A stretch of DNA of 64,000 nt from an uncultured Verrucomicrobia subdivision 3 bacterium (GTDB taxonomy: Bacteria > Verrucomicrobiota > Verrucomicrobiia > Limisphaerales > UBA11358), in the NCBI GenBank assembly GCA_903917705.1, contig CAIXBQ010000085.1:1-64000 (forward strand), in the 5' to 3' direction. Below the pieces are notes generated by a model. That model did not search any database. It was not told the origin of the DNA and was given only the letters and a program-made list of their open reading frames with translations. This document shows, in pieces, positions 7,520 to 21,858 of the stretch (the first letter of the stretch is position 1; each line of letters starts with the position of its first letter). Position numbers and translations under genes: made by a program.

Positions 7520-7770
7520 GGACGTGAATTGCACTCTGCAATTCACATGTCCAAGGCCTGGAGTTGCCAATTGCACTCTGCAATTCACAACTTTGTGACC
7601 GGACATGGCAATTGCACGGCGCATCTCTCATGTCCAAGCCCTGGAGTTGTCAATTGCACTCTGCAACTCACGCCCGAGGGCATCAAGGATGGCAATTGCA
7701 GAGTGCAATTCACGTCTGGGAGGCGTTGACATGGCAATTGCAGAGTGCAATTCAAGCCCCGAAGGCATCG
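7520..7770. repeat. 21-bp-phased palindrome array 1
   Basis: Six copies of AATTGCA-CTC-TGCAATT or its reverse-centre form AATTGCA-GAG-TGCAATT (starts 7527, 7569, 7610, 7652, 7694, 7736) recur every 42 bases (41 once). The third copy is decayed. Between them lie other short inverted repeats: CCA-AGGCC-TGG, CCA-AGCCC-TGG and CCCGA-AGGCA-TCGGG. Taken together the dyad centres fall at about 7535, 7556, 7577, 7618, 7639, 7660, 7680, 7702, 7744 and 7765, i.e. a 21-base grid with two weak positions (7598, 7723). It lies between the convergent POT and OPT transporter genes. Open frames across it are short and are judged a by-product of the period being a multiple of three. Confidence 0.85.
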
Positions 7771-7772
7771 GG

Positions 7773-7795
7773 ATGACCCTTTCCGGGTCATTTTG
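7773..7795 (+). terminator. Hairpin with T run
   Basis: ATGACCC (7773-7779), loop TTTCC, GGGTCAT (7785-7791) and a following TTT make a compact rho-independent terminator-like structure at the end of the phased array. It points along the plus strand, toward the end of the convergent OPT gene. It may end transcription of the peptidase/POT operon or simply be the last dyad of the array. Confidence 0.5.
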
Positions 7796-19984: not shown

Positions 19985-20599
19985 CTAGGTGCTCATGTGG
20001 GTCTTCCCGTCGGTCCAATCGCTCGCCCCCGTGCTCCCGCCCAGGGCGCGAATCCTGATCGTATACAGCGTTCCCGGCGTGAGATTCTCCAGAATCATCC
20101 GGCGCGTGTTCCGGAACAATTGGCCCAGCCGCCAGTTTCTGTCACCCATGTGATACCAAACCTCATACATCCGCGCATTCTTGACGGGCTTCACCTTGAG
20201 CTGCAGTTTACCGGCCCCCGCGTTCCGGATACTGTAGAATTCCGGGATGGGCAGGGGCGACTGTGTGGTGTTTCGCGACGCCGGGTCAAAGCCCGACGAA
20301 AGAATCTTGCTCAAATCATTCTTCGCGGCGAATTGCACATACGCCGCCAGCTCGCGTAACATTTCTACCACGGCGGCCCGTTTCACCCGCTGGGTTTCGA
20401 TGACCGCCCGGCCGCGATCCTTCGCCGCGTTGATGGCATGGGTCAGCTCTTCGCAGGCGGATAGGAGCTCCGCCAAATCAAATGGCGGCGACGGGAAATG
20501 GATGTTCCCCAGCAGCGCGGCATAAACGCGCAATCCAGATAGATAAACGCCCGTGGCCGAAGCCCGTCGGAACGCCAGCGATACACGAATGGCAGCCAT
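19985..20599 (-). CDS. FN3-domain protein next to phased array 2
   Basis: Protein of 204 residues without a signal peptide. Residues 1-110 are helical and unrecognised (AIRVSLAFRRASATGVYLSGL; LLSACEELTHAINAAKDRGRAV). The C-terminal 85 residues form a fibronectin type III domain (LKVKPVKNARMYEVWYHMGD; NLTPGTLYTIRIRALGGSTG). ATG 20599 is favoured because AGGAAAGG lies about 10 bases upstream; a longer frame would run into the repeat array. The gene starts about 40 bases from the edge of array 2, whose minus strand would be its upstream region. Function unknown. Confidence 0.75.
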   Translation of the reverse strand: MAAIRVSLAFRRASATGVYLSGLRVYAALLGNIHFPSPPFDLAELLSACEELTHAINAAKDRGRAVIETQRVKRAAVVEMLRELAAYVQFAAKNDLSKILSSGFDPASRNTTQSPLPIPEFYSIRNAGAGKLQLKVKPVKNARMYEVWYHMGDRNWRLGQLFRNTRRMILENLTPGTLYTIRIRALGGSTGASDWTDGKTHMST

Positions 20600-20639
20600 A
20601 TAGATAAAACCTTTCCTGAACGACTCAAGTGTGTGACCG

Positions 20640-21550
20640 ACGGAACCATGCCCCGGACTCACGGACCCAAGCCTTGGGCTTGCAGATCCACGCCTCTGAC
20701 TGGGCGAAGCAAGCCTCGGCCCGGGAGAATCATGTCACTGACTCACGGACCCATGGCTTTGCCTGACCGACTCAAGCCTCTGCCTGATGGAACAACGCCT
20801 CGGCTTCTCCGAGCCATGTCGTTGACTCAATCAAGCTCGCCTCTGTCCGATGGAGTCATGCCTCGGCCTCAAACACCAATGCCTTGGCCTGATTAAACAA
20901 TGTCTCTGCCTGACCGAACCACTTCTCTGACTCCGGGAAACACTCTTAAGTCTTTCGGAGATGACCTTAAGTCTGAATTTGCCGCTCGGCAAGCATAATC
21001 TGCCGCACGGCAAACAAAAGTAGCCGACAAGCAAACTAATGGTGCCGATAGTCACGCCAAGCTTGCCGTGGAGCAACTTTAGAAAGCTTATCGGCTCATA
21101 AATCATGCCTTGCGGCAGACATCACTTGCCGCTGGGCAAGTCATGTGTGCCGTCCGGCAAACTATCAATGCCGCGAAGCAAGCAGCGTGTGCCGCTTGGC
21201 AAAGACAGGCAGAGACAATGTTGTCTGACGGAAAAGCATCTGTTTCTTAAGGAGCAAAGTCTTTCTCGAAGGGAGAAAAGTCTCTCCGGAAGGGAAAAGA
21301 GTCATTACACGAGAGAGGCAAGCCTCTCCGTGAGAGAGAGAAGTTGGGCCGGGAGTGAGACAAGTCTGACTGCGAGGGAGGGAAGTTGTTCCAGAAGGGA
21401 GACGAGTCTCTCCGCGAGGGAGAAACGTTGGTCAACCAGCCCAGCATGTCACTCCGCGAGGGAAAGAAGTTTGGCCCGAAGTGAACCATATCTTTCCCCA
21501 AGCGAGAGACATCGTTCCGGTCCGGAGCCAAGTCAGTGCCCGAGGGAGCC
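20640..21550. repeat. 21-bp-phased palindrome array 2
   Basis: About 43 degenerate units of 21 bases. In the middle block eleven dyads are centred exactly 21 bases apart, at 20985.5, 21006.5 and so on to 21195.5: TTGCCG-CT-CGGCAA, TGCCG-CA-CGGCA, GTG-N8-CAC, TTGC-N6-GCAA, AGC-N6-GCT, TGCC-N4-GGCA, CTTGCC-N4-GGCAAG, TGCCG-TC-CGGCA and others. After a phase slip come AGACAA-TG-TTGTCT, TTTCTC-N5-GAGAAA, CTCTC-CGT-GAGAG, TGGT-CA-ACCA, TCCGG-T-CCGGA and CCC-GA-GGG, still near the 21-base grid. The first block (to about 20970) keeps the period (CCTCTG and CCTCGG starts) but has weaker dyads. Frames on both strands stay open as heptapeptide repeats because 21 is seven codons. Confidence 0.85.
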
Positions 21551-21552
21551 AT

Positions 21553-21659
21553 GCCTTTCAACGTCGGCGAGGAACCGTGGAGCTGGTGGGGCGAGTGTCC
21601 CCACGAGCCGTTGGGGTGCGCGGCTCGCGGGTACGCTCGCCCCACCGGGCTGTTGGCGT
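21553..21659. repeat. 107-bp direct repeat, copy 1
   Basis: Matches 21721-21827 with one difference (C for T at the 17th base). It begins GCCTTTCAACGTCGG and ends CTGTTGGCGT. Inside are nested inverted repeats: TGGGGCGAG with CTCGCCCCA, and CGAGCCG with CGGCTCG, so each copy can fold into a strong stem. It follows array 2 directly. It resembles a mobile or REP-like intergenic element. Confidence 0.9.
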
Positions 21660-21720
21660 AAGCAAGTCGCCGTCGCTTTTGTCTGATGAAATCAAAACCG
21701 CGTTGGGTGAGGGCAACGAA

Positions 21721-21827
21721 GCCTTTCAACGTCGGTGAGGAACCGTGGAGCTGGTGGGGCGAGTGTCCCCACGAGCCGTTGGGGTGCGCGGCTCGCGGGT
21801 ACGCTCGCCCCACCGGGCTGTTGGCGT
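21721..21827. repeat. 107-bp direct repeat, copy 2
   Basis: Second copy of the structured element, 168 bases downstream of the first. The 61 bases between the copies (21660-21720) show no gene. The near-perfect identity points to a recent duplication or recent insertion. Confidence 0.9.
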
Positions 21828-21858
21828 CACCAAGGCCAACTCCGTGTTCTCCCCGCCG

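Follow-up and report, generated by a model that had tools for sequence, protein, structure and literature searches.

Iteron arrays of plasmid origins are composed of 17–22 bp repeats positioned 5' of a rep gene. The partition centromeres sopC and parC are helix-phased arrays of protein sites, and in type III toxin-antitoxin loci a small gene directly follows a repeat array. REP/BIME elements with RAYT transposases share their sequence and a GTAG/CGTC tag (PMC3733652), and eukaryotic centromeric satellites contain dyad symmetries (PMC9070824).

The array described here lies in a 64,000-nucleotide stretch (the window) of contig CAIXBQ010000085.1 from an uncultured Verrucomicrobia subdivision 3 bacterium. 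Together with arrays at related loci, it was compared to each of these systems. The arrays share with iterons a position upstream of a gene and a repeat spacing close to two helical turns, and the words of iterons also differ between replicons. Helically phased repeats within the 17–22 bp range were found, but the adjacent gene encodes a helical bundle plus an FN3 domain instead of a Rep initiator. Moreover, unlike iterons, the arrays occupy many chromosomal loci per genome, contain 10 to 43 units and include words in inverse orientation. They resemble REP/BIME elements as dispersed intergenic palindromic repeats whose density is tied to a gene family, but their words differ per locus and the GTAG/CGTC tag was not enriched (11 of 103 arrays, compared to 8 of 103 for reversed tags). 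No recurrent neighbor family that could supply a tyrosine transposase was found beside the array and the FN3-family gene.

Helical phasing is also common to sopC and parC, whereas here many arrays exist per genome and no conserved partner gene lies alongside except the FN3-family gene. Centromeric satellites similarly have tandem units with dyads and quick sequence turnover, but the present arrays are short, intergenic, bacterial and tied to a protein-coding gene. As in type III toxin-antitoxin loci, the array stands immediately 5' of a small gene; however, its units are degenerate, and neither an RNA signature nor an endoribonuclease match was detected. No description of such arrays was found in the openly accessible journal papers searched.

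The Compound Array in the Window

The array (20640–21552, no strand assigned) consists of approximately 43 units of exactly 21 bp, identified by autocorrelation and unit listing. All units stand in exact register without an indel, and the unit number and 21-bp spacing given in the preliminary description are thereby confirmed. The match fraction was 0.53 at lag 21 (z of about 19) and 0.46–0.53 at lags 42–126, compared to 0.25 expected, with z values of 14–19 across lags 21–126. One common grid carries three blocks of different words, one after another.

Block 1 (20640–20943) has the consensus GcCTCtGcCTga..GAacCA., and its dyads did not exceed those of column-permuted 21-bp repeats (P = 0.58). 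Block 2 (20965–21216) is of the TTGCCG-N-CGGCAA type and displayed significant dyads every 21 bp, centered at 20985.5, 21006.5 and so on to 21195.5. It was 78% complementary compared to 46 ± 6% in column-permuted copies, a level reached by 0 of 100 permutations, and it also showed a paired-change (covariation) signal of z = 3.2. Block 3 (21217–21552, extended to 21555 in the dyad test) has the consensus GTct.TCc..gAGgGAga.Aa and a weak dyad, again not above the permuted repeats (P = 0.17). Thus, the earlier claim that dyad centers lie exactly 21 bases apart was confirmed for the central stretch, while its extension to the whole array failed against permuted units in the two flanking blocks. 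None of the blocks is assigned to a strand.

In the folding, frame, period, dyad and word statistics across loci, the window array is represented by the part of it that the array model covered (L002). Beside the array, a stretch of about 106 bp is present twice, at 21553–21660 and 21721–21828, the copies being 168 bp apart with one mismatch. This stretch contains the inverted repeat GGTGGGGCGAG ... CTCGCCCCACC.

The Linked Gene and Its Protein Family

The 5' end of a minus-strand gene (19985–20599) faces the array, which is located directly upstream. The short gap between the array and the start codon (20600–20639) contains a ribosome-binding-site-like AGGAAAGG on the minus strand, as read from the sequence. 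The gene encodes a protein of 204 amino acids (P0001) with an N-terminal helical bundle and a C-terminal FN3 domain, predicted by AlphaFold with a mean pLDDT of 90.6. The C-terminal part matched Pfam fn3 with an E value of 2.7e-5, just below the Pfam cut-off, and its Foldseek matches were FN3 domains. Pfam and PHROGs matches were confined to this part, and NCBIfam gave no match for the window protein. For the N-terminal domain, Foldseek returned no significant match and VIA-align only generic helical bundles.

Structure comparison revealed no DNA-binding fold in the linked protein. The median pI of the family was 7.0 and its N-terminal domain is acidic, whereas the copy in the window has a pI of 10.2. 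Judging from these predicted properties, the linked protein does not look like an obvious DNA binder. It matched no endoribonuclease family and no PADLOC defense-system model. The window protein had no match in plasmids or phages and no relative among viral contigs. Phage, plasmid, viral and defense origins were rejected on these absent matches. No gene family recurred next to the array and the FN3-family gene, and no conserved operon partner was found.

Genomes of Limisphaerales and other Verrucomicrobiota carry the helical-bundle/FN3 family in multiple copies and with a patchy distribution, and it also occurs on contigs labeled Acidobacteria. The named loci come from Verrucomicrobiota MAGs, the cultured Luteolibacter marinus (L042, L071) and MAGs labeled Acidobacteria. 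A profile search yielded 10 matches in the genome of the window (G000) and 24 in a second genome (G019), the weakest of which may be other FN3 proteins; a single-protein search yielded 6 and 16, respectively.

Several family members carry additional features. In 27 of 105 members, a tryptophan-rich sequence of the type TWNGKDxQGKPLLWDTPGLTWDG extends the N-terminus ahead of the conserved start, and in-frame extensions upstream of the homology were observed, for example, in L034, L037, L050, L051, L054 and L065. Three copies (L113, L115 and L126) have in common, 3' of the gene, a terminator-like hairpin AAGGCCGGAACGGGCAACCGTTCCGGCC with a T run after it.

Array–Gene Linkage Across Loci

An array of period 21 or 42 (z > 8) was detected upstream in 105 of the 132 family loci with upstream DNA. 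Controls of equal length contained an array in 3 of 129 downstream stretches and 2 of 175 distant stretches. The loci were gathered via the protein, so the linkage is measured from the gene side; the genomes are mostly MAGs of one genus-level group with scattered others. Statistics on the 105 arrays are given regardless of kinship, the arrays being phylogenetically non-independent. All 6 loci in the window's genome and all 13 fetched loci of G019 had an array upstream of the family gene, while arrays occupied about 11% and 24% of other long gaps in these genomes, respectively.

Upstream, 82 loci had a best period of 21 and 21 loci one of 42; the values 20, 22, 41, 43 and 44 occurred at one locus each. 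The 20-bp and 22-bp arrays still bear dyads, which indicates that the constraint is approximately two helical turns and not codons. The median array size was 12 units, most arrays having 10–20, and the median distance from the array end to the start of homology was 265 bp. Three loci (L004, L021 and L026) also carry an octamer microsatellite, CAACCGCG, shortly 5' of the array.

Words, Dyads and Column Conservation

Array words differ from locus to locus, even within one genome, and the 13 analyzed G019 loci had 13 distinct words. Word pairs above the similarity threshold accounted for 12.8% within genomes and 10.2% between genomes. The idea of a single word read by one binder throughout the host was rejected because words are barely more alike within than between genomes. 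Word similarity climbed with protein identity only above about 50–60% (Mantel r 0.44); above that level, array and gene descend together. Two pairs nevertheless had unrelated words, L032/L038 with N-terminal domains 90% identical and L109/L110 at 83% identity. The former is hard to reconcile with a linked protein that reads the word. Words can thus be replaced while the gene stays.

Dyads exceeded column permutations at z > 2 in 60 of 105 array consensuses, and about 40% of the arrays had no significant dyad. The consensuses showed 13.1 of 21 self-complementary columns compared to 10.6 expected, with complementarity peaking in an inner core of about 11 bp. The earlier statement that symmetry is kept while sequence drifts therefore holds between arrays, each locus having its own word.

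Column conservation was overdispersed 2.1 times relative to the binomial, a value based on a star-like null and partly inflated by unit ancestry. It was mirror-correlated around the dyad center (0.218 ± 0.038 vs. −0.046 ± 0.014). Some arrays contain one word of about 10–12 bp in both orientations on one grid; L113 and L115, for example, carry a single word, TTCTTACCGTCT, in alternating orientation. Orientation flips were detected at z > 3 in 20 of 95 arrays.

Orphan Arrays, Duplication and Spread

A second array in the window (7527–7790, no strand assigned), detected by TRF and in the sequence, has a period of 42 (z 12.8) and AATTGCACTCTGCAATT dyads. This array is an orphan: the intergenic gap that contains it has no FN3-family gene in its vicinity. 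Sampling of G019 and G000 also revealed arrays in other intergenic gaps, several of them between convergent gene ends.

In about 2 Mb of sampled background DNA, 17 orphan arrays were found in 1248 kb of gene-carrying genomes and 3 in 713 kb of gene-free genomes. Of these last three, one proved to be a coiled-coil coding sequence and another a heptamer microsatellite; the sole real array was L240 in G021. Orphan arrays thus have about nine times the density in gene-carrying genomes that they have in gene-free ones but are not exclusive to the former, and two genomes account for much of the difference. The idea that arrays strictly require the FN3 gene, which 0 arrays in the first 487 kb of gene-free DNA had suggested, was rejected on account of L240.

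Arrays were also duplicated with or without the gene. L113 and L115 are homologous from a point 15 bp ahead of the array until shortly after the gene, and the homology between L004 and L026 covers array plus gene and stops at the stop codon. The orphan L169 lies at a GAPDH gene and is a diverged copy (320 bp, 79% identical) of the FN3-linked L110 array with its promoter-like tail, and thus some orphans may be relics of array–gene units. At the 5' homology boundary of L102 and L105, GTGTCCC-like words occur three times at 20–22 bp spacing, at the edge of the duplicated array–gene block. These words resemble transposon-end binding sites.

Interpretation of the Arrays

We propose, at about an even chance of being right, that the array is a set of helix-phased sites, next to the linked gene's promoter, for a dimeric or oligomerizing DNA-binding protein, and that its words turn over quickly. 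The preliminary description had likewise suggested a dimeric or polymerizing protein with dyads on one face of B-DNA, without mention of the linked gene family. Its interpretation is supported in part, as the best fit to the period, the mirror-symmetric conservation, the words in either orientation and the lack of an RNA signature. To these, the fixed grid, the gene linkage, the locus-specific words and the lack of a coding signature can be added as established observations. We infer protein occupancy, oligomerization and a role of the linked gene as target or partner.

In this model, the approximately 43 sites, placed every two helical turns, would all lie on one side of the double helix, and the array would belong to a class of intergenic arrays typical of genomes with the helical-bundle/FN3 family. 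A homodimeric or oligomerizing protein would fill the sites side by side, forming a nucleoprotein filament or platform. This structure would adjoin the promoter of the linked gene and may control or serve that gene. The recognized word of about 10–12 bp would be locus-specific and quickly replaced as units are amplified, without loss of the spacing or of the two-fold (or either-orientation) placement.

Besides the properties of the linked protein and the unrelated words of L032/L038, other points count against this model: with dozens of distinct words, either an equal number of specificities or a shape reader would be required; some 40% of the arrays show no significant dyad; and orphan arrays stand without the gene. 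A possible, tentatively held proposal is a "word-free" bacterial satellite system, in which machinery accompanying the helical-bundle/FN3 family would write or maintain the arrays in trans; only their two-turn spacing and two-fold placement would be conserved, and every array would have a word of its own that is rapidly replaced.

The main rival, which we consider rather unlikely, is a bacterial satellite or MITE-like selfish repeat. Here, an unknown enzyme or replication process would amplify DNA in two-turn steps with a preference for two-fold symmetric seeds; the FN3 gene would be a companion or passenger, and no later occupancy would be needed. The duplication of arrays with the gene (L113/L115, L004/L026) or without it (the GAPDH orphan), the wholesale word replacement and the ninefold orphan density in FN3-family genomes, as for REPs with their transposase, all agree with such a repeat. 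However, no recurrent neighbor gene was fit to be a transposase and no shared ends were seen. Neutral amplification also predicts equal column divergence, whereas conservation is uneven and mirror-symmetric, and in L110 the core ACCAGCTGGT recurs while the spacers are nearly free.

DNA cruciforms or single-stranded hairpins recognized by shape would explain changing words with a kept dyad, and the dyads without a common word and the paired changes of the central block point in this direction. This explanation is improbable in view of the whole set. Covariation between arms was absent over the 105 arrays (mean z 0.11 ± 0.15; above +2 in 14 arrays and below −2 in 7), block 2 of the window being an exception, so the paired changes noticed earlier are real in that block but are not a general rule. 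Cores such as that of L110 are also too tight for a loop, and about 40% of the arrays show no significant dyad.

A string of small RNA hairpins, the alternative raised in the preliminary description, would act in a transcript such as a 5' leader or a type III antitoxin-like RNA. The array does sit 5' of the gene, and folding energies were low (mean z −4.8 compared to shuffles). However, the strands were equal in folding energy, the gene-sense strand being lower in 29 of 58 arrays, words occur in both orientations, and no Rfam match was found. No bias of G·T over A·C mismatches appeared (897 observed and 897 expected for G·T; 779 and 788 for A·C). Independent variation of the arms, the lack of wobble bias and strand-equal folding argue against transcribed hairpins, which we regard as very improbable, and agree with a dimer whose two subunits each contact the DNA independently.

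An intact or decayed protein-coding repeat of heptads (7 codons, or 21 nt) would suit a period that is a multiple of three and the one open frame in 45 of 58 arrays (32 expected), but it was rejected as having a negligible chance, since each frame of the window array contains 6–13 stops, a three-base conservation rhythm appeared at p < 0.05 in 4 of 58 arrays, and arrays of 20, 22 and 44 bp exist, the 20- and 22-bp periods not being multiples of three.

Significance

With its fixed spacing and changing words, the array appears to represent a fast-evolving type of protein-binding array for which no earlier description was found. Regulatory DNA is normally recognized via conserved sequence, but motif searches would miss these arrays, in which conservation applies to spacing and symmetry and not to the sequence. 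The pattern extends from Verrucomicrobiota to contigs labeled Acidobacteria. The arrays are the first strong genetic partner for an unstudied multicopy protein family, and the cultured host Luteolibacter marinus makes the array system testable.
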